In this document: in pieces, positions 37,308 to 48,608 of the stretch | Layout of the letters: each line of letters starts with the position of its first letter | How positions within the stretch are numbered: position 1 is the first letter of the stretch | Source: Terriglobales bacterium | Lineage (GTDB): Bacteria; Acidobacteriota; Terriglobia; Terriglobales; Acidobacteriaceae | Reading direction: 5' to 3' | Assembly (NCBI GenBank): GCA_025934735.1 | Contig: JAICWP010000017.1 | Span: 1-64,000 of the forward strand | Length of the DNA stretch: 64,000 nucleotides | Made by a program: the position numbers and the translations under genes | Notes under the pieces: generated by a model | What the model saw: only the letters and a program-made list of their open reading frames with translations | Databases searched by the model: none | Told to the model about the DNA's origin: nothing

Positions 37308-37691
37308 TCAGTAGGTCATGACGCCGACTTCTTTTTCCACCTCGACGGTATCTACCATGGCGATGGCGTCCCACGGGCAGCCGTCGAGGAACGAGCCGTC
37401 AGGGCCCTTGCTGGTGCACTTCTTGCAGCCGATGCACAGGATCGGGTCCACCTGGATGCGACCGAAAGGCGGGTGATCCTCATCGGCCACCCAGAACATG
37501 CAGTCTTCCACCGGGCAGTATTCCACGCAGGCGGGCGAACCGGCGCAACCAGTGCAACACTCGGTGATAACCGCCAGCTCTTTAGGCTTTTTCTTGCGGG
37601 CGGTGACTATGCCCTTGGATCGGGGCTCTGATTTCAGTTCGTCCGGCACCATGCCGGGGGCCTTGGGTTCTGTCCCGGGTACGCTCGCCAT
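37308..37691 (-). CDS. Ferredoxin-like 2[4Fe-4S] protein
   Basis: 127 aa. Two cluster regions are present, CCTGCAGSPACVEYCPVEDC and CIGCKKCTSKG...CPWDAI, in the arrangement of bacterial seven- or eight-iron ferredoxins. A basic, Pro-rich N-terminal lead of about 40 residues precedes them. The ATG at 37691 was preferred over the frame start at 37751. It lies near the activase genes, and low-potential electrons for such activases usually come from ferredoxin, so a functional link is plausible. Confidence 0.85.
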   Translation of the reverse strand: MASVPGTEPKAPGMVPDELKSEPRSKGIVTARKKKPKELAVITECCTGCAGSPACVEYCPVEDCMFWVADEDHPPFGRIQVDPILCIGCKKCTSKGPDGSFLDGCPWDAIAMVDTVEVEKEVGVMTY

Positions 37692-38340: not shown

Positions 38341-41300
38341 TTAGTCGCCGCTCATCTCAACCAGCTCATCCTGCCGGGCTGCACCGCCAAGCTGGGGATC
38401 GCCGATCTGGACGAGAGTGTCGGCAGGCGCTTGCGGCCGCTCCACGTTCTTATACTTTTCGGCGGTGGCCAGCTCCTGCCGCAGCTGTTCCTCGAACTTC
38501 TTCAGCTGCTCGTCAATGGTCAGCTTCTTTTGCTTCTCTCGCACCATGTCTTCGCGGTAGCGTTTGAGGAAGTAGCCGATGGTCTCGACGCGAATCTTGA
38601 TGGACCCGCTGGGCTTATTCTCGTCAATATCCTTGAAGCAGAAGTAGGGCGTGCCGGTGTGCTCCACCACTTCTTCAATGACTGTGTAGATGGGCGCATC
38701 GTGGCCGCACTTGAAGCTGGAGAGCTCGAGCGCCACCAGGTTAGGGTGCCGGCCCACGTACTTTGCCGACCACACCTTGCGCGAGGTGTTCTCGGAGTAG
38801 GAATTCTTCCACGCATCCGTGATGTCCAGGGGATGCTGGATGAGGCCGGCCTTGACGTCGTCGCCGAAAAGTCTCCAGATAATCTCGTCATCAATCGGCA
38901 GCGAATCCTGCGAGAACACCGGGTAGCCGAGCTTCTGGAACTCCTCAAGGATCTCGTGGTTGATGCCGGGATCGTGATGATAGGGACGGCCCAGGAGCAC
39001 GATGCCCAGGCGATCCTCGGCTTCGAGCTTCTTGAGAACTTCCCGCGCCTGGCTGCGCATGATGTCATCGGAGAACTTGTCCAGCGCCTTGAACCCTTCC
39101 TCAACCGCGCGGTAATTCTCTTCCTCGCTCAGGCCCAGAATGTCCTTCCAGTCGGTAAACATCTGGCGATGGCAAATGTTGATTTTGTCGAGACCGACCA
39201 TAGTGTCCTTCCAGATGACACCTTTCTCCTTGAACAGGTCGGCTTCCTTGGTGAAGGCCGCCTTCACCGAAGCCGGTGTAGCGGTCACGGTGGGACAGGC
39301 GCGGCTGGCCTGCGTGTGCTTCAGGAAGGTGGGCAGTGAATCAATCATCGGGAAAAAGATGATGTCGAGCTGCTTCTTGGGGTGGATCACGTAAAGCAGG
39401 TTGTGAACATGCGGGATGCCAACCTTGGAGGGGAAGCAGGGATCAATGGCGCCACGCTTGGCGCCCTCCTTGTAGAGCTGCTCGCTGGTGTACTCGGACC
39501 AGATGAGGTTTTCGGCCTTGAGCCCCAGTGCCTGGAAGTAGGCGGTGAAGAAGGGCCCGCAGGAATACATGTTCAGGGCCTTGGGCATGCCGATCTTCAA
39601 CTCGGCGCGCTTCTTCATCAGCTCGGCGCGCTTTTTTTGCCCTGAGGTAATAGCGAACTTGGGCAGCGGGTCGGCCACTATCGGCGGCTCGTAGTCCTTG
39701 AAGGCCGCCTTGGCCGCCACTTCCACCAGGTTCGGGTTCTCTTTCTTAATGGCGTCAATGTTGCCCTTGATGACGCGCATCTCGTCCACGTTCTCCACCG
39801 TTCCCTTTTCGCAGGTGGCGATGATCAGGCGCTGCGCGCCTTCGGCCAGCGGCACCTTGGTCTTTGACGGCGGCTTGTAATTCGGGTTGGGTGTCACCGT
39901 CTTGACGTCAATGAAGGTGCGCAGGCACTTGTTCTTGCAGAAATAGCAGCGCGTAGCCTCGTTGCGCGTGGTGGTGAAGCTGATGGAGGCCACGCCGTCC
40001 AGGCCGATAAATTCGGTCTGCAGGCCGTTCTCCCACAAGCGCACCGCCTCGAAGGCGCAGCCAATGGCGCCCGCCTCACCGCAGTGCTGGTGGACGATCA
40101 CTTCCGCCTGCACGTCCTTGCCCTTAAAGCGCGACTCGATGAAGTCAACCTGCGACTTCACCGCTGCCAGGTTGTGCTGTGTGCCACCCTGCAGGATGAA
40201 TTTCCGCCCGATGGCCGACAAATTGGGAATCTGTGAAACGTACAGCCAAATGTTTTTAGGCAGCACGTTGCACAACCCGGCCATGATCTCTTCCGGCTTC
40301 CAGCCCTGGCGCTGGAAATCCACGATATCGGACTGCATGAACACGGCGCATCCGTAGCCGAATTGCGGGAAGGCTTTGGCGCCGAAGGCGATCTCGGCGA
40401 ACTCCTCCACCTTGAAGCCGAAGCTCTCGCAGGTGCCCTGCAGAAAATAGCCGTTGCCGGCGGAGCACTGGGTGTTGAGCTTGAAATCTTTTACGCGGCC
40501 ATCCTTGAGGATGATGATCTTGATGTCCTGGCCGCCCACGTCGCAGATGACATCGGCATCAGGATAGAAGTGCAGCGCGGCCTGGGTATGGGCCACGGTT
40601 TCCACCAGGGCCACATCGGCGCCCACAGCGTCCTTCAGGATGTCCTTGGCGTAGCCGGTGGTGCCCACGCCCAGGATTTTGATGGTCGCACCCTGGTCGG
40701 TTACCTGCTTGGCAATTTTGCCGATGACCTCCTGCGTATCCTCTATCGGATTGCCTCTGGAGAGCTGGTAAGTCTTGCAGAGAATGTTGCGGTTCCTATC
40801 CACCAGCACCGCTTTGGTGGACGTGGAGCCGCCGTCAATGCCGATGAACCCTTCCACCACCTGCCCGGGCTGGAAGGTTGTGGGCACGAACTTCTTCTTG
40901 GTGTATTTCTGCCTGAATGCGTCCAGTTCATCCGGGGTCTTGGCCAGCGCCTGGCCGCCGCCCTTCTTGGCCTTCTCGATGGCGCGGCCCTCGGTGATGT
41001 ACCACTCGAGCTTTTCGTAGCCGAGATAGACGCCCACGCCGGGGTCTTCCTGCTTGCCGAACTCAACCGCACCGATGCAGGCAAAGTACTGCGCGTTATC
41101 GGGAGTGCGCACCAGGTCTTCGGGATTCACGCCTTCGGGCAGGGGGTAATTGCGCTCTTCCCAGATTTTGGGGATGTTGTGCTTCCAGCAGTCGCGCATG
41201 CCCTTGATGTAGCAGTTGGGGCCGCCGAGCAGGAGCACCACCGGGCGCAGAGTATTGCCGCGCGTCAAAACGGAAAGGTTCTGCTGCACGATGGACTCAA

Positions 41301-41937
41301 ACAGCGAGGCCATCAGCTCCGGCGGGGACACGCCCTGCTTCTGCAGGCTGTTGATGTCGGTTTCGGCAAACACGCCGCACTTGCCGGCCACCGGGTGCAG
41401 CTTCAGCCCGTTGTAGCCCATCTGGCAAAGCTGGTCGGAGGGGATGCGCAGCTTGGCGTTGATCTTGTCAATCACCGCGCCCGTGCCGCCCGCGCACTTG
41501 TCGTTCATGGAAGGCAGCTTCTTCTTTTTGCCGGTCTCGGGATCCTCCTTGAAGATGATGATCTTGGCGTCCTGCCCGCCCAGTTCGATCACCGAACCGC
41601 ATTCCGGGTAGAGCTTCTCCACCGACAGCGAAACAGCGTTGACCTCCTGCACGAACTTGGCGCCAATGTGCTTGGAGACGGTGCTGCCGCCCGAGCCGGT
41701 GATGAACACACGAAAGTTTTCGTAGGGAGTAGCGGGAAAGTCGGCGTGGATGGCGTGCAGCATCTCCAGCGTCTTCTCCGGCTGCTTGGTCTCATGGCGC
41801 TGGTAGTCCTGCCAGAGAATATCGTCATTCTCGCCGTCAATGACGACCACCTTGACCGTGGTCGAGCCCACGTCCACGCCCATCCACAGCAGGTCGTATT
41901 TCTTTTGCGAATTCGCCTTTTCCGTTATTCCCGGCAT
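38341..41937 (-). CDS. Double acyl-CoA dehydratase activase (BadF/BadG) fused to DUF2229
   Basis: 1,198 aa. Two ASKHA ATPase modules: the first (MGVDVGSTTVKVVVIDGEN; cluster-type Cys in KCAGGTG near 147 and GKCGVFAETD), the second (IGIDGGSTSTKAVLVD; QCSAGNGYFLQ near 490 and GCAVFMQSD). The C-terminal third (from about 780; IGMPKALNMYSCGPFF, DPCFPSKVGIPHV) is DUF2229. The architecture matches YjiL-type activases, which use ATP to drive one electron at very low potential into an HgdB-like partner; that partner is the next gene upstream at 42046. The substrate is unknown. The ATG at 41937 is preferred over a GTG two codons earlier. Confidence 0.88.
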   Translation of the reverse strand: MPGITEKANSQKKYDLLWMGVDVGSTTVKVVVIDGENDDILWQDYQRHETKQPEKTLEMLHAIHADFPATPYENFRVFITGSGGSTVSKHIGAKFVQEVNAVSLSVEKLYPECGSVIELGGQDAKIIIFKEDPETGKKKKLPSMNDKCAGGTGAVIDKINAKLRIPSDQLCQMGYNGLKLHPVAGKCGVFAETDINSLQKQGVSPPELMASLFESIVQQNLSVLTRGNTLRPVVLLLGGPNCYIKGMRDCWKHNIPKIWEERNYPLPEGVNPEDLVRTPDNAQYFACIGAVEFGKQEDPGVGVYLGYEKLEWYITEGRAIEKAKKGGGQALAKTPDELDAFRQKYTKKKFVPTTFQPGQVVEGFIGIDGGSTSTKAVLVDRNRNILCKTYQLSRGNPIEDTQEVIGKIAKQVTDQGATIKILGVGTTGYAKDILKDAVGADVALVETVAHTQAALHFYPDADVICDVGGQDIKIIILKDGRVKDFKLNTQCSAGNGYFLQGTCESFGFKVEEFAEIAFGAKAFPQFGYGCAVFMQSDIVDFQRQGWKPEEIMAGLCNVLPKNIWLYVSQIPNLSAIGRKFILQGGTQHNLAAVKSQVDFIESRFKGKDVQAEVIVHQHCGEAGAIGCAFEAVRLWENGLQTEFIGLDGVASISFTTTRNEATRCYFCKNKCLRTFIDVKTVTPNPNYKPPSKTKVPLAEGAQRLIIATCEKGTVENVDEMRVIKGNIDAIKKENPNLVEVAAKAAFKDYEPPIVADPLPKFAITSGQKKRAELMKKRAELKIGMPKALNMYSCGPFFTAYFQALGLKAENLIWSEYTSEQLYKEGAKRGAIDPCFPSKVGIPHVHNLLYVIHPKKQLDIIFFPMIDSLPTFLKHTQASRACPTVTATPASVKAAFTKEADLFKEKGVIWKDTMVGLDKINICHRQMFTDWKDILGLSEEENYRAVEEGFKALDKFSDDIMRSQAREVLKKLEAEDRLGIVLLGRPYHHDPGINHEILEEFQKLGYPVFSQDSLPIDDEIIWRLFGDDVKAGLIQHPLDITDAWKNSYSENTSRKVWSAKYVGRHPNLVALELSSFKCGHDAPIYTVIEEVVEHTGTPYFCFKDIDENKPSGSIKIRVETIGYFLKRYREDMVREKQKKLTIDEQLKKFEEQLRQELATAEKYKNVERPQAPADTLVQIGDPQLGGAARQDELVEMSGD

Positions 41938-42045
41938 TGACACCCCGTTTTTGGTCGTTGGCTATTGGTCGTTGCCACGTCGCAACTCGTGCGGGACCCG
42001 GTCGTCGACCGGTCATGCGGGGCCGAGCCCCGCCCCACACCGGCT

Positions 42046-43818
42046 CTAGTGCGTTTCCAAGTGATACGGCACCTGGGCGCCCATCTTCTCCGCCACGTGG
42101 ACAGCGAAATTGGCCGCGGTCCCGACCACGCCCTTATATTTGGGCACATGGTAGATCGCCTTTGACATCTCCGGATGCTCGGCCACGTAGGCCTTCAACT
42201 CATCCGCCGTCTTGCCGATCTTCTGCAGCACGTCTTTGAACTCCAGCTTGGCCTTGGCTTTGGCTTCGCCCAGCGCCATCTGCACCCGGCTGTGAGCGTT
42301 GATTTCCCCCTCGCCGGAGGTCTCGATCGGCAGGTAAATCATGTCTTTGTAATGGGCTACCACGGCCGATTGCGCGCCGTCCGACTGCGTGGAAGGCATG
42401 CAGCCGAAGGGCTTTAGCGACAGCACCATGTGCGCCAGTTCGTGGTTGGTGTAGTAAATGTTTTTGGCGACTTCCAAGTGGCCTTCGCCGCCTTCAGCGC
42501 GGGTGTTGTAGTAGGGGTGGCCAACGCGCTGCAACTCGTATTGATCCACCAGCTTGTGAGCGGTCCCGCCGAGCGCCTCGATGATCTTGTGGTACTCGCG
42601 CGCGAAAATCTTCTCCGCCGCCTTCAGCTTGAGAAGCTTGTTGCGGTAAGCCCACTCGATCTTGGCGTGCTTGTCAATGCGCCACGCCGCGGGCATCACC
42701 GCGCCCTCTTCCAGGCCGCGTCGGTCGCGGCCCTTCTGGATCACCTGGTGGATCAGGTAATTGATCCAGGTGGCGATAGGCTCGACGATGATCTGGGCCC
42801 CTTCCTTATTGAGGAAGCTGAACATATTGAAGTTGCCGTCGCCTTCCGTGGTCTGCGCCCAGAACTCGCCCGTAATCTTCACGATGGGCTTAACCTTCAA
42901 CCGGTCCACGGGGATCGAGTTGAAGCGGTCGCGGCAGTGGTGCAGCGCTTCGACATAGTCGTCGCTGTAGAGTTGCTCCAGGAACTTGCCCAAGTACTCG
43001 ACTGCAGCCTTGGCGGGCAGCTTGCTGGCAAACTTGCCCAGCTTAGCTTCCACGCTCCAGGGCGACTTCTTCTTGAGCACTTCATGCATGTAATCAATCA
43101 CTTCGTCGAGCACGGCATCGGTGTCGCCGGGGTTTAGCTCAAAGGCGCGCACCTGGTGGGCCAGTTCATTGATCACGTCGCCCATGTTCAGGCCGTTGAG
43201 AATGCTGAGGAAGAAGTCCAGGTTCATGTCCAGGCCGGCTTCCGCCTCGGCCTGGTTCAAGCCACCGGACTGCTGGAACAGGAGCACCCGGAACCCGTCA
43301 TAGCCCGCGTTACGCAGGGCCAGCCGGTACTCGGATTCGTACATGCCGAAGCGGCAGGGACCGCAGGCGCCGGCAGTCAGGAAGACGTAGTTGTTGATGA
43401 GGTCCTGGCGCTTCTGCCCCGATTCTTCCAGTGTCTGCAGGTATTGCACCAGGTTGCCGACCGTGAAGTAGGTGGGGTTGCACTGGCCGTTGTTGCCATA
43501 TTCCTTCCCCAGTTGGAAGGCTTTCACATCGGGCGTGGGCACCACCTCACAGCGGTAGCCCAGACCTTCCAATGCGCCGTGAACCAGTTTTTCGTGCTTC
43601 CAGGTCAGGCCGCCGAAAAGCAGGGTGGTGCGGTGGCGCTGGTCAGCGGTGAAGGGGCGCTCAATGGGTTTATGGAAGTGGTGCGCCTCTTTGTGAACAA
43701 TGCCAGCTTCCCGCTCCAGGCGGGCTCGTTCTTCCGCCACGCGGTCGCGAATCATGTCTTCTACTGTGGTGATCTGCACGAGCTCATTGCCGGATACCGG
43801 ATGCGTCGAAGTACTCAT
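42046..43818 (-). CDS. HgdB/2-hydroxyacyl-CoA dehydratase-like partner protein
   Basis: 590 aa. It resembles the iron-sulphur subunit family HgdB/YjiM. Conserved Cys regions are GNNGQCNPTYFTVGNLVQYL, GACGPCRFGMYESEYRLAL and KPFGCMPSTQSDGA, likely cluster ligands. GAGG lies just before the ATG at 43818; the frame start eight codons earlier is less good. It is first in the minus-strand operon with the activase (108 bp apart). It probably receives low-potential electrons from the activase. No dedicated dehydratase alpha subunit is adjacent, so the reaction cannot be named. Confidence 0.82.
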   Translation of the reverse strand: MSTSTHPVSGNELVQITTVEDMIRDRVAEERARLEREAGIVHKEAHHFHKPIERPFTADQRHRTTLLFGGLTWKHEKLVHGALEGLGYRCEVVPTPDVKAFQLGKEYGNNGQCNPTYFTVGNLVQYLQTLEESGQKRQDLINNYVFLTAGACGPCRFGMYESEYRLALRNAGYDGFRVLLFQQSGGLNQAEAEAGLDMNLDFFLSILNGLNMGDVINELAHQVRAFELNPGDTDAVLDEVIDYMHEVLKKKSPWSVEAKLGKFASKLPAKAAVEYLGKFLEQLYSDDYVEALHHCRDRFNSIPVDRLKVKPIVKITGEFWAQTTEGDGNFNMFSFLNKEGAQIIVEPIATWINYLIHQVIQKGRDRRGLEEGAVMPAAWRIDKHAKIEWAYRNKLLKLKAAEKIFAREYHKIIEALGGTAHKLVDQYELQRVGHPYYNTRAEGGEGHLEVAKNIYYTNHELAHMVLSLKPFGCMPSTQSDGAQSAVVAHYKDMIYLPIETSGEGEINAHSRVQMALGEAKAKAKLEFKDVLQKIGKTADELKAYVAEHPEMSKAIYHVPKYKGVVGTAANFAVHVAEKMGAQVPYHLETH

Positions 43819-44232
43819 ATCCTCACCTTCCCTGGCAAGCATGGTGAATCATTGATACTTAAGGACTTTTTGCTGGTACACGTTTCCCTGATTAAAAACG
43901 CTACATATTGTTGCCCGGTTTAGCTGCCAGCCGAATCGGTTTGTAGCGAACGGCGGAAATTAGTGGTTCAAGGGGCCGATGGGGGTGCTGAGCGGATAAT
44001 AACCCTCCTCATTTTCAGTGACTTACAAGCTCTTATCACACTCCGTTGTGATAAGGGGAGCGGGGCCGCAGGCGGCAAAAAAATGATCCACGGCTTTACG
44101 CCCGTTTTCCCCGCGTCCTATCGCTTCGGGCCAGGCCAGCACACTCCTCAGTGATACGAATCACAGCCAGTGGTTCACGCCGGAGCCGATACTGCCAGCC
44201 AAGCCGGGGTAAACGTGTGCCCGGCTGCTCGC
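43819..44232. other. Divergent intergenic region of the activase operons
   Basis: 413 bp with no convincing gene. It should hold promoters for both divergent activase/HgdB pairs and contains the 24-bp inverted repeat at 44032-44055. A plus-strand frame open from 44170 continues into the next gene, but its first 21 residues look non-coding. Confidence 0.6.
44032..44055. promoter_or_regulatory. Perfect inverted repeat, possible shared operator
   Basis: CTTATCACA (44032-44040) and TGTGATAAG (44047-44055) are exact inverted copies with a 6-bp spacer. They lie about 210 bp upstream of the minus operon and 180 bp upstream of the plus operon. There is no T-run after it, so an operator is more likely than a terminator. 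Confidence 0.5.
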
Positions 44233-47200
44233 ATGATTAACCTCGGTTTGGATATTGGCGCGGTGAGCCTGAAGCTGGCGGCTGTGGGCGACGCAAGTGA
44301 CGCCGGGGCTCTGGCGCGCCTGACAAGCCAAAGTGAAGAGTTCTTCCTCTCCGCCACCGCGGGCAAAGCCTTGGCGGACAGTTCAGTGGCACTTTCGCGC
44401 GTCCGAGCGGTACAGGGTAGTCCACTGCAGGGCGCCGTGGAACTGCTGCAGGAATTTTTGCTTTGGGTACCACCTGCGGGTATCGAGGGCGTGCGGGTAA
44501 CCGGGCTGGGTGGGCGGCTGACCGCTCACGCCCTGAACGCGGAATTTGAAAATGAGTTTCGCGCCGTGGCCAGGGGCGTTCGCTCCCTCTATCCTGACGC
44601 CCGCACCATTTTCGAGATGGGTGGCGAGACCTGCAAGTACATCCGTCTCGATCCCGAGGACCACTCCAGCTACCTTGGCATCTGCGATTACTCCGCCAGC
44701 GGCGATTGCGCTGCCGGAACCGGCGGCTTCATCGAGCAACAAGCTTCGCGCCTGCGGTACGCGGTAGAGAACGTGGGCCCGGCGGCTTGCGGGGCCAGTT
44801 GTGCCGCGCGGGTTGCGGGCCGCTGTTCCGTATTTGCCAAGACGGACATGATCCACGCCCAGCAGAAGGGCTATACCACTGACCAGATTCTGCGCGGGCT
44901 GTGCGACGCGGTAGCGCGCAACTTCAAATCCAGCGTCGTCAAGGGACACGAAGTAATTCCGCCGGTGCTGTTTATCGGCGGCGTCGCTCTGAACCAGGGC
45001 GTGCGCAACGCATTGCGCGAGGTGTTCAAGCTGCAGGAGCAACAATTCATCGTACCCGAGCTGTACTCCTGGCTGGGCGCACTGGGGGCCGCACTGTTTC
45101 AGGCGGAAACGCGTGCAAGGAGCCGCTTTTCGGGTATCGAGCGCCTGCGCGAGGTTGCCGCCTGCCTCCAGGACTTCCCTTCCACCAATGCGCTTTCCCT
45201 GGCCAACGTGGAACTCCTGCGCGACCGGGTTGCGGTGCCGCCGCCGTTCGTAAACGCGCACACGGTGGAAGCTTACCTGGGAATTGACATCGGGTCGGTC
45301 AGCACCAACCTCGTGGTACTGGATTCGCAAGGCCGCCTCCTGAAGGAAATTTACCTTGCCACCGAAGGCCGGCCTATCGAGGTGGTCAACCGGGGTCTGG
45401 CGGAAATTCAAGCCGAAATGGGCGAGCGACTAGACATTCGGGGCGTGGGCACCACCGGCTCCGGCCGCGAACTGGTTGGCGAACTGGTGGGCGCCGACAT
45501 CGTCACCGACGAGATCACTGCCCATAAGACCGGAGCCATGCACGTGTGCCAGGAAATGGGCATGGCGCCCGTGGATACCATTTTCGAAATCGGCGGCCAG
45601 GATTCCAAGTTCATCCGCATCGAGCACGGCGTAGTGGTGGATTTCACCATGAATGAAGCCTGCGCCGCGGGCACGGGCTCGTTCCTGGAAGAGCAGGCGG
45701 AGCGGCTGGGAATCTCGATCAAAGGCGAGTTCGCCCGGCTGGCGCTCTCCTCTCAGCACCCGGCGCGCCTGGGCGAGCGCTGCACCGTGTTCATGGAGCG
45801 CGACGTCAATGGTTTGCTGCGCAAAGGCGCGCAGGTGGCCGACCTGTGCGCGGGACTGGCTCATTCCGTGGCGCTGAACTACCTGAACCGGGTGGTGCGC
45901 GGGCGGAAGATCGGCGACGTCATCTTTTTCCAGGGGGGAACCGCCTACAACGACGCCGTGGCCGCCGCCTTCTCCCAAATTCTCGGCAAGACCATTATTG
46001 TTCCGCCTCACAACGGGGTGATCGGCGCCATCGGCATGGCTTTGATCGCGCGCGAGCGCATGCAGGCGCGGCATCAGCCCAGTCGCTTCCGCGGCTACGA
46101 CCTGGGGCAGGTGAACTTTTCCACCCGCGATTTCGTCTGCAAGGCCTGTTCCAATTATTGCGATATGAAGGAGTTCGTCATCGAAGGCCAGCGCAGCTAC
46201 TGGGGCGACAAATGCTCGGACAAGTTTCGTAAGCGCCCGCGCGGCGATCGCCAGCCAGTCATCGAAGACCTGGTCGAATTCCGCGACCACTTGCTGGAGC
46301 AGGCAGTCGCGCCCGTTCCGGTGAAGCCCAACGGCCACGTGAGGCCGCGAGTGGGCATTCCCCGCGCCATGTTCTTCTATGACCGCGGTCCTTTCTGGGC
46401 GGCCTACTTACGGGAGTGCGGATTCGAGGTGGTGACCTCGCGGGCTACCGATGGGCGCATGGCTGCCGCCGGCGACGAACTCGCGATTGCCCAGCCTTGT
46501 TTTCCCGTGATCGTGGCCCACGGCCATGTTCAGGATCTGCTGCAGCGTGGCGTGGATTACGTACTGGTCCCGAACATTCTTGACTATGAGGCACCGGACC
46601 AGAACGTAAAGTCGCATCTCTGCCCCTGGAACCAGACGCTGCCTTTCGTGCTCCGTGCCGCGCCCAAGTTGGAGAACGCCGCCGGCCAGCTGCTCGCGCC
46701 GACTGTGCACTTCCGTCTGGGACAGGAACATGTGCGCAAGGCGTTGGGGGAGTTTGCGCGCCAACTAGGGGTTTCCCGATCCGTGAACAAACGCGCCGTA
46801 AACGCTGCTTACGCCGCGCAGCAGCGCTTTCGAGAGCAACTGCTCGATGCCGGCGAGCGCACACTCGCCACGCTCGCGAAAGCCGGAGAGCCTGGCCTCG
46901 TACTCCTGGGCCGCCCCTACAATCTTTATGACCGCAACATCAATTGCGATCTACCGCGCAAACTGCGAACTCTCTACGGCGCCAACGTGATCCCGCTGGA
47001 CTTCCTGCCGTTAGAGGAAGAGGACATTTCTGAGATCAACGACAATATGTACTGGAACTCAGGGCGGCTGATCCTGGCCGCGGCGCGCATCACTAGTCGC
47101 TATCCCAACCTGCACCTGATCTACATTTCCAATTTCAAATGCGGGCCCGATTCTTACATTAAGTCATTCTTGTATGACGCTTCCGGCAAACCCAGCCTGC

Positions 47201-47310
47201 TGCTGCAGTTCGACGGCCACTCAAACGACGCCGGCTTTCTCACCCGTTGCGAAGCCTATCTCGACAGCAAAGGATTCCTGCGATGCAACTCCGCGCCCAC
47301 CGCTGTGTGA
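44233..47310 (+). CDS. Second double acyl-CoA dehydratase activase-DUF2229 protein
   Basis: 1,025 aa, paralogue of the 38341 gene in the same architecture. ASKHA module 1 (LGLDIGAVSLKLAAVGD; DCAAGTGGFIEQQ near 159; GRCSVFAKTDM) and module 2 (LGIDIGSVSTNLVVLDSQG; ACAAGTGSFLEEQ near 477; ERCTVFMERDV) lead to DUF2229 from about 705 (VGIPRAMFFYDRGPFW, AQPCFPVIVAHGH). Here both modules keep the classic CAAGTG form, closer to true activases than the other copy. The ATG at 44233 begins at the first conserved strand. It overlaps the next gene by 28 bp. Confidence 0.87.
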   Translation: MINLGLDIGAVSLKLAAVGDASDAGALARLTSQSEEFFLSATAGKALADSSVALSRVRAVQGSPLQGAVELLQEFLLWVPPAGIEGVRVTGLGGRLTAHALNAEFENEFRAVARGVRSLYPDARTIFEMGGETCKYIRLDPEDHSSYLGICDYSASGDCAAGTGGFIEQQASRLRYAVENVGPAACGASCAARVAGRCSVFAKTDMIHAQQKGYTTDQILRGLCDAVARNFKSSVVKGHEVIPPVLFIGGVALNQGVRNALREVFKLQEQQFIVPELYSWLGALGAALFQAETRARSRFSGIERLREVAACLQDFPSTNALSLANVELLRDRVAVPPPFVNAHTVEAYLGIDIGSVSTNLVVLDSQGRLLKEIYLATEGRPIEVVNRGLAEIQAEMGERLDIRGVGTTGSGRELVGELVGADIVTDEITAHKTGAMHVCQEMGMAPVDTIFEIGGQDSKFIRIEHGVVVDFTMNEACAAGTGSFLEEQAERLGISIKGEFARLALSSQHPARLGERCTVFMERDVNGLLRKGAQVADLCAGLAHSVALNYLNRVVRGRKIGDVIFFQGGTAYNDAVAAAFSQILGKTIIVPPHNGVIGAIGMALIARERMQARHQPSRFRGYDLGQVNFSTRDFVCKACSNYCDMKEFVIEGQRSYWGDKCSDKFRKRPRGDRQPVIEDLVEFRDHLLEQAVAPVPVKPNGHVRPRVGIPRAMFFYDRGPFWAAYLRECGFEVVTSRATDGRMAAAGDELAIAQPCFPVIVAHGHVQDLLQRGVDYVLVPNILDYEAPDQNVKSHLCPWNQTLPFVLRAAPKLENAAGQLLAPTVHFRLGQEHVRKALGEFARQLGVSRSVNKRAVNAAYAAQQRFREQLLDAGERTLATLAKAGEPGLVLLGRPYNLYDRNINCDLPRKLRTLYGANVIPLDFLPLEEEDISEINDNMYWNSGRLILAAARITSRYPNLHLIYISNFKCGPDSYIKSFLYDASGKPSLLLQFDGHSNDAGFLTRCEAYLDSKGFLRCNSAPTAV

Positions 47311-48608
47311 AGCCCACGCTACCTCCCGGCCACCCGCTGGCAGGAAAGACGGTGTACGTTCCCGCCATGGCACAGGGCGCGGTTGAGGCATTCGCCGCCG
47401 TCTTCCGCTGGTTCGGCGTGGCCGCGCAGCCCACGCCGCCTTCCAACCAGCGCACCCTCGAACTGGGGGCCAAGTTCACCAGCGGTGATGAATGCTATCC
47501 CGCCAAGATCACGGTGGGCGATTTCCTGCGCATCCTGGAACAACCCGGAGTGGACCCGGAGCGCACCATATTCTTCATGGCTACGGCCGATGGCCCCTGC
47601 CGCTTCGGCCAGTATGTTCCGTTTTTGCGCAAAGTCCTGGCGCAGGCGGGTTTTCCAGATGTGCAGGTATACGCCCCGAGCACGCAGCAGGCCTACCGCG
47701 ATATTGCCCGCCTGGGCAGCACGTTTGAGCGCACCGCGTGGCGGGCTCTGGTCGCCGCTGACATTCTGCGTAAAGCCCTGCTGCAGACCCGGCCCTATGA
47801 AACCGCCGCCGGCGCCGCCGACCAGGCCTTCACAGAATCGGTTGCCGATCTTTGCCAGGCCATTGAAGCCAGTTGCACAGACACCGCCTGCCAGATGAAG
47901 TCGCTGGTGGTTTCCCTTCAGCGTGCGCGCCAGCGCTTCCTCCTGGTTCCCGCGAGCTACACCCGGCAGCGACCGCTGATCGGCGTGGTGGGCGAAATTT
48001 TCTGCCGGCTTAATAACTTCAGCAACGCCGATCTGGTGCGCAACCTGGAAATGCAAGGCGGTGAAGGCTGGCTGACCGACATCGCGGAGTGGATCGGATA
48101 CTGCAACTCAGAAGTCGCCCGCAAGCTGCGCCTGGTAGGGCAGGCAATCTCGCTGGAGATGCTGAAGAGCACCTTGCGCAGCCACGTCCAGCACAGCGAC
48201 GAACGTGCCCTGCTGGCGCCCTTCGCCCAGGATTTTGCCGGCTATGAGGAGCCCCACATCAGCGAAGTTCTGGACCTGGCCCGCCCCTACCTGCCCAACA
48301 CCGGGGTGGAAGGCGAAATGGTGGTGAGCATCGGCAAAGCCGCCTACCTGGCGCGGCATGGCGCGGACGGCATTGTGGACATCAGCCCCTTCACCTGCAT
48401 GAACGGCATCGTCAGCGAGGCCATCTACCCCAAGCTGAGCAAGGACTACGGCGGCATTCCCATCCGCAATTTTTACTTCGACGGCACCCAGGCCGAACTG
48501 CAGCGTGATTTGGGCATCTACCTGGAACTGGCCCGCTCCTACCGGGAGAAGAAGCCGTTCTCGCGGCGCTATCCCGCTCGTTTCAAACAGGCTATGGCGG
48601 CGGACTGA
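47283..48608 (+). CDS. Second HgdB-like partner protein
   Basis: 441 aa, the counterpart of the 42046 gene and shorter. Conserved Cys regions are [37 protein letters not shown] and [18 protein letters not shown]. The ATG within the activase 3' end (28-bp overlap, AAAGGA upstream) implies translational coupling and equal dosage. It is likely the electron acceptor of the 44233 activase. The reaction is unknown. Confidence 0.82.

Follow-up and report, generated by a model that had tools for sequence, protein, structure and literature searches.

The 64,000-nucleotide stretch analyzed here (positions 1 to 64,000 of contig JAICWP010000017.1 of a Terriglobales bacterium, assembly GCA_025934735.1; hereafter the window) carries two divergent gene pairs, A (38341–43842, minus strand) and B (44170–48608, plus strand), each encoding a double ASKHA activase fused to DUF2229 and a second, HgdB-like protein. 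We consider it probable that each pair is a [4Fe-4S] reductase driven by ATP and fed by ferredoxin, similar to PlsA/PlsR and Ger, pair B serving the ethers bound for the tetraether synthase Tes and pair A acting on another substrate. The arguments come from the architecture of the proteins, the fold of A2, the conserved cluster ligands, phylogeny, the association of B with Tes and the operon partners of A.

The original prediction had described two such divergent pairs, and the open reading frames (ORFs), confirmed at all four sites, the Pfam matches, the fold of A2 and the homology of B2 agree with it; its reading of the activase motifs (CAAGTG twice in one pair, CAGGTG and CSAGNG in the other) was right as well. 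A1 (38341–41943, minus strand, 1200 amino acids (aa); Pfam and NCBIfam matches, motifs and homologues) is an Act1-Act2-Red1 protein with two BcrAD_BadFG ASKHA domains, a CxxCxNxC motif and DUF2229, and B1 (44170–47310, plus strand, ORF of 1046 aa; Pfam, motifs and conserved Cys) is another; in both, the two BcrAD_BadFG stretches and DUF2229 score far over the Pfam cut-offs. The activase motifs read CAGGTGAV and CSAGNGYF in A1 and CAAGTGGF and CAAGTGSF in B1, and a second Cys is present for every activase module (GKCGVFAE and GCAVFMQ in A1, GRCSVFAK and RCTVFME in B1). Cys 180, 219, 498, 538, 657, 660, 664, 682, 777, 818, and 991 of B1 are kept in 21 of 21 homologues, Cys 83, 118, 253, and 384 of B2 in 14 of 14, and Cys 121, 163, and 481 of A2 are invariant across 47 sequences. 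Alignments and motifs taken together, cluster-ligand Cys are present in Act1, Act2, Red1, and Red2 of both pairs.

The second proteins required other means of recognition. Pfam gave no HGD-D match in A2 or B2, no hit of any kind in A2 and a sub-threshold DUF2229 match in B2, and phmmer searches of both against PDB gave no match, so that fold comparison alone placed A2. For the AF2 model of A2 (42046–43842, minus strand, 598 aa; pLDDT 85), Foldseek ranked highest the catalytic subunits of 3-methylbenzoyl-CoA reductase, the double-cubane cluster protein (DCCP) and BzdNO (probability 0.93–0.98, E 0.004–0.02). With VIA-align the top seven rows were chains of 2-hydroxyacyl-CoA dehydratase (HAD), DCCP and benzoyl-CoA reductase (BCR), with Z of 7.7–9.3 over 272–289 residues spanning 65–530, and the next row was unrelated (Z 7.1 over 113 residues). 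By its predicted model, A2 is a Red2 subunit of the HAD/DCCP/BCR (HgdB/BcrB/DCCP) fold. B2 (47247–48608, plus strand, ORF of 453 aa) is assigned as the Red2 subunit because blastp aligns it with the portion of fused PlsA-type proteins that forms Red2 and because it has four invariant Cys. Both pairs have two PF01869 activases, a DUF2229 Red1 and an HgdB-like Red2 (B2 judged from sequence), and this Act1-Act2-Red1-Red2 layout is that of PlsA/PlsR and Ger, not that of 2-hydroxyacyl-CoA dehydratase.

PlsA/PlsR and Ger are BCR/HAD-family enzymes of the Act1-Act2-Red1-Red2 type that convert esters to vinyl or alkyl ethers, and validated Ger has two PF01869 domains (PMC12838417, PMC13274423, PMC8788747, PMC11150832). 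The PlsA-PlsR proteins (CPE1194/1195 of Clostridium perfringens; the fused PlsA of Enterococcus faecalis and Lactococcus cremoris; the Listeria ortholog L028) show the same order, Act1-Act2-Red1 plus Red2, share the cluster-ligand Cys with A and B, and like them occur in split or fused forms. A tblastn search against plasmid records retrieved fused or split homologues from Listeria, Haliovirga, Collinsella, Fusobacterium, Acetoanaerobium, and Subdoligranulum; the PlsA-type homologues of Listeria (1483 aa) and Haliovirga (1449 aa) are fused, and that of Fusobacterium is split after Red1 (985 + 404 aa), which is also where the proteins of the window are divided. Of 14 control genomes, those with DUF2229 were Thermotoga maritima and Lactococcus, for which Ger/PlsA activity has been validated in the species or genus, and two others. 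Ger itself (Tmari_0479 of T. maritima, SHJ90043 of Desulfatibacillum alkenivorans), likened here by its description, is PlsA-like with a double PF01869 and has an alkyl-ether role in producers of membrane-spanning lipids; unlike A and B, it is treated in the literature alongside the coupling enzyme Mss.

In trees built on the Act1-Act2-Red1 region, A falls on the side of the PlsA-type references, opposite B and the fused Acidobacteriota proteins of about 1400 aa. A1 is sister to PlsA (SH-aLRT 100) on a stem of 2.4 changes per site, for which the tree program warns of long-branch effects. The topology joining A and B was rejected by the approximately unbiased (AU) test (p = 0.004); A and B are separate subfamilies, not sister groups. 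PlsA-clade references read CAGGTGAF and CS(A/S)GCGSF; A shares with them the CAGGTG and CS-G-G style, and B differs in carrying CAAGTG twice. The Act2 motif of PlsA proper is matched by neither A1 (CSAGNGYF) nor B1 (CAAGTGSF). Since the split in the tree coincides with motifs particular to each clade, the motif difference between A and B is a deep subfamily marker. The PlsA/Ger superfamily consequently holds at least one further large branch, A, to which no product has been assigned. A also differs from PlsA-PlsR in its long separate stem, in having the Red2 gene before that for Act1-Act2-Red1, and in its partners, which are a ferredoxin and a 96-aa protein, joined in relatives by a radical SAM protein. 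Relatives of A1 within the family of the window are 84–87% identical. The nearest named relatives of A1 are Terriglobia, and the window shares a family with genome G029, so that it most likely comes from this class of Acidobacteriota.

The function of B is indicated by its association with Tes. In one genus (locus L080 and its congener L079) the gene immediately before B1, read in the same direction, encodes a Tes homologue that matches PDB 7tol at E 5.5e-137, which gives a Tes-B1-B2 operon. Scoring as Tes any protein with at least 50% identity to that of this operon, we examined a phylum sample (297 genomes) and a class sample (219 genomes) that overlaps it in part of the family of the window. 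In the former, Tes was present in 18 of 23 genomes with B, two of these 18 belonging to the genus that supplied the Tes query, versus 8 of 274 others (Fisher p = 1.5e-18), and, counted by family, in 8 of 10 (p = 8e-8). In the latter it was present in 16 of 30 genomes with B versus 2 of 189 others (p = 2.5e-14), and 14 of the 16 genera with Tes carried B. One genome (G029) has Tes and neither A nor B. Because of this co-occurrence and the shared operon, B is most likely an ester-to-ether reductase for lipids of the branched glycerol dialkyl glycerol tetraether (brGDGT) type.

Tes homologues in Acidobacteria were already known (PMC8941075), Koribacter versatilis has been reported to make iso-diabolic tetraesters (PMC13274423), and cooperation of PlsAR homologues with Tes in brGDGT formation has been proposed for Solibacter usitatus, a member of the same phylum, which is the same pairing as that of B with Tes (PMC10087280). 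The parts of the latter article considered here name no subfamily, and neither the split into two subfamilies nor the limitation of the Tes association to B was found in them. What is new beyond the published proposal is which subfamily carries the Tes association, the statistics and the shared operon.

A weaker Tes paralog (650–760 aa, 36–38% identity), to be kept apart from the association just described, is nearly universal in the class Terriglobia: 214 of the 219 genomes have some Tes-like match, and the genome of the window has a copy (G000:C10:92445-93911; L246). Iso-diabolic acid is similarly ubiquitous, and the paralog may catalyze the coupling that forms it. In the genome of the window, B would make non-spanning ether lipids or act together with this paralog.

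The proposed mechanism is as follows. In each ATP-driven cycle, an ASKHA activase with a bridging [4Fe-4S] cluster passes one electron on to the clusters of the Red subunits. In both pairs Act1 and Act2, being parts of one chain, would bind a single [4Fe-4S] cluster through four Cys and take electrons from ferredoxin, the presumed donor, and ATP hydrolysis would drive their injection, at a presumably very low potential, into the catalytic pair of Red1 (DUF2229) and Red2, which would hold Cys-ligated clusters. There an acyl ester would pass through a ketyl-type radical and, after reduction and dehydration, give a vinyl or alkyl ether. B would replace glycerol ester bonds with ether bonds in those membrane lipids that are to be coupled tail to tail by Tes (tetraethers of the brGDGT type), its predicted substrate being the glycerol-bound acyl chain before or after the coupling. 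A would be a second, independently evolved enzyme of the superfamily, sister to PlsA and, by this kinship, probably acting on an acyl-ester lipid as well, with a substrate other than that of B.

Pair A is widespread. In one scan of named genomes, A1 homologues with 54–76% identity were found across at least ten bacterial phyla (Acidobacteriota, Ignavibacteriota, Marinimicrobia, Planctomycetota, Latescibacterota, Zixibacteria, Poribacteria, Myxococcota, including the aerobic Nannocystis, Gemmatimonadota, Bacteroidota, Chloroflexota, and Gammaproteobacteria), many of the sources being metagenome bins, for which single taxon assignments may be wrong; A-type genes are also present in a contig of Candidatus Solibacter (L221). 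A2 adjoins A1 in most complete loci, and open frames of 1730–1811 aa in some Chloroflexota, Planctomycetota, and deltaproteobacterial contigs are long enough for a fused form. On the minus strand of the window the gene order is A2, A1, a conserved 96-aa protein directly downstream (C4, 37799–38089; tblastn) and a ferredoxin-like protein with two Cys clusters (37311–37673; homologue comparison). The latter, which the original prediction had noticed near the pairs, is real and lies just outside the span 38341–48608. It is 87–89% identical to its homologue, adjoins A in six relatives and is the probable electron donor of the A system; Fer4 matches were weak for the homologue at L086:3866-4240 (89% identical). 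Loci of Acidobacteriota, Latescibacterota, Marinimicrobia, Poribacteria, and Planctomycetota have the 96-aa protein after A1, and Pfam and NCBIfam scans of it gave no match. We tentatively suggest that A represents an unrecognized, highly conserved family of ATP-driven radical reductases that has its own substrate and builds an undescribed lipid, aided by a dedicated ferredoxin, by the 96-aa protein and, in much of the family of the window, by a radical SAM enzyme. In some close relatives (G200 and G453 of genus g32) A1 appears broken or fragmentary, consistent with the loss of an accessory function.

Other neighbors of A would also fit an alternative in which B is a lipid ester reductase and A a different low-potential reductase, either linked to isoprenoids or hopanoids or making its product together with the radical SAM partner. 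In Ignavibacteria (L182, L186, L189, L190, and L223), squalene-type genes resembling hpnC-hpnD-hpnE (recognized from sequence) lie just upstream of A2-A1; in Latescibacterota and Marinimicrobia the gene after A encodes a membrane protein that carries a CSSC redox motif; and in many genera of the family of the window a radical SAM gene lies inside or beside the A operon, in the order A2-rSAM-A1 or rSAM-A2-A1 (L095:3145-4446; homologues L133–L142 and L201:6196-7578). In this family the radical SAM gene is present in 19 of 26 DUF2229-positive and in none of 34 other genomes; the genome of the window is without it. The long stem of A in the tree speaks for the same alternative, and so does the behavior of Tes: a direct link between A and Tes, apparently significant in the phylum sample, is gone once B is held fixed in the class sample, where Tes is present in 14 of 22 genomes with A and B versus 1 of 40 with A and without B. 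Against it stand the sister position of A to PlsA with the PlsA motif style, a single Planctomycetota contig (L193) in which A2-A1 is followed by Tes on one strand, the co-occurrence of A with B above chance in the class sample (22 of 30 versus 40 of 189, p = 4e-8), and TetR-like regulators upstream of A in two phyla, such as have been described for the pls genes of facultative anaerobes (PMC9702350). On balance we regard this alternative as rather unlikely.

The radical SAM partner itself was considered as a possible Tes and rejected: no match to Tes was obtained, and its best PDB matches were weak ones to SPASM/viperin/MoaA-type proteins, its C-terminus being SPASM-like. A short N-terminal motif, RxDVxLHxLL..P, is found both in this protein and in certain A1 and A2 proteins encoded alongside it, and is perhaps a common docking peptide.

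Several points weigh against the assignment of both pairs to PlsA- and Ger-like lipid ester reduction. For A and B alike, chemistry, substrate, electron donor, and redox potential are inferred. The Fisher tests given above ignore shared descent, which the counts by family and genus mend only in part, and B is present without a Tes ortholog in the genome of the window and without Tes in family f84. The validated Ger of T. maritima and D. alkenivorans and the PlsA of C. perfringens were not among the sequences of the tree, in which B does not group with PlsA and the sister position of A to PlsA may be due to long-branch attraction, given its long stem. For A, the dependence of its Tes association on B counts in the same direction, and neighbors such as the hpnC-hpnD-hpnE-like genes and the MoaA/SPASM-like radical SAM protein need not mean ester reduction.

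The original prediction had left open whether the pairs form one hetero-system or two systems, and the checks of phylogeny and co-occurrence that it had proposed favor the latter. A single system, in which each pair supplies half of a catalytic complex, could be argued from the divergent arrangement in the window and from the co-occurrence above chance. However, in the class sample B is missing from 40 of the 62 genomes with A, and A from 8 of the 30 with B, the pairs are not sisters in the tree, and each has a full set of Act and Red modules of its own. Among the genomes examined, A and B adjoin each other only in that of the window, where B1-B2 separates A2 from ssb; relatives have ssb immediately after A2, and the neighborhood therefore has the look of an insertion that took place in this lineage. 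The better reading is that of two systems serving related parts of metabolism, and a hetero-system is very unlikely. Still less credit can be given to activation of a corrinoid or another cofactor at low potential, which had also been suggested: ASKHA activases do feed low-potential electrons and a ferredoxin lies near A, but each double activase forms one protein with a BCR/HAD-type reductase module of its own and has a Red2 subunit as its partner, and none of the conserved neighbors seen was a corrinoid gene. The corrinoid reactivators RACo, whose ASKHA domain comes with an N-terminal ferredoxin domain, are a different family; the main Pfam domains of the large proteins are BcrAD_BadFG and DUF2229, no dedicated search for RACo having been made. 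The evidence points instead to lipid ester reduction, B being tied to Tes.

Least probable of all is a classical 2-hydroxyacyl-CoA dehydratase or benzoyl-CoA reductase, with which the pairs share activase and reductase folds (Z of A2 is 9.3 to 3o3n and 7.7 to 9g87) and from which (HgdABC/HadBC, Bcr/Bzd/Mbd) they differ by the fused double activase with DUF2229, the lack of CoA-ester subunits and scores far below the NCBIfam equivalog cut-offs for BcrA, BcrD, and BzdQ (113.9 versus 578 bits, among others). PF06050 (HGD-D) has no match in the whole genome; partners for standard 2-hydroxyacyl-CoA dehydration were thus looked for and not found, in agreement with the earlier remarks that no CoA-acid enzyme was seen and that the role may lie outside fermentation. 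A2 also has the Red2 fold in common with DCCP, an [8Fe9S] protein, and YjiM of Escherichia coli (Z 8.1–8.4), and the activases are homologous to DCCP-R and YjiL; the latter are single activases with a separate reductase and no DUF2229 fusion, in contrast to the double activases of A and B.

Palaeothermometers in wide use for soils and sediments are based on brGDGTs. B is a specific candidate for the formation of the ether bonds of these lipids in Acidobacteriota, as it accompanies Tes from family to family and can stand in one operon with it. Since the superfamily includes the branch A without an assigned product, surveys in which every PlsA-like hit counts as Ger (at 30% identity cut-offs) may mix enzymes with different jobs.

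As for the remaining features of the locus, homologues of B1 begin at about residue 22 of its ORF (MINLGLDIG), and judging from them its true start is probably ATG 44233, not GTG 44170; that of B2 is probably ATG 47283, overlapping B1. The divergent intergenic region shared by the pairs (43843–44169) contains two perfect dyads upstream of B1, CTTATCAC-N8-GTGATAAG at 44032–44055 and an FNR/CRP-like GTGAT-N4-ATCAC at 44151–44164, each occurring once in the window and in none of 100 shuffles; both have a putative regulatory role. The long antisense ORFs, including a seemingly conserved cluster (C3) beside B2 on the opposite strand, were rejected as artefacts of GC-rich DNA. In eight loci of four families (L071–L078; Pfam was run on L074) a divergent gene for a GAF-GAF-sigma54 activator adjoins B1, which suggests redox or signal control of B. 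A distant B-like protein of 1282 aa, without CxxCxNxC, is encoded on a Paraclostridium plasmid (L024:3749-7597) in one cluster together with genes for an ABC transporter and cupins, a hint that this branch may act on a non-lipid substrate taken up from outside.

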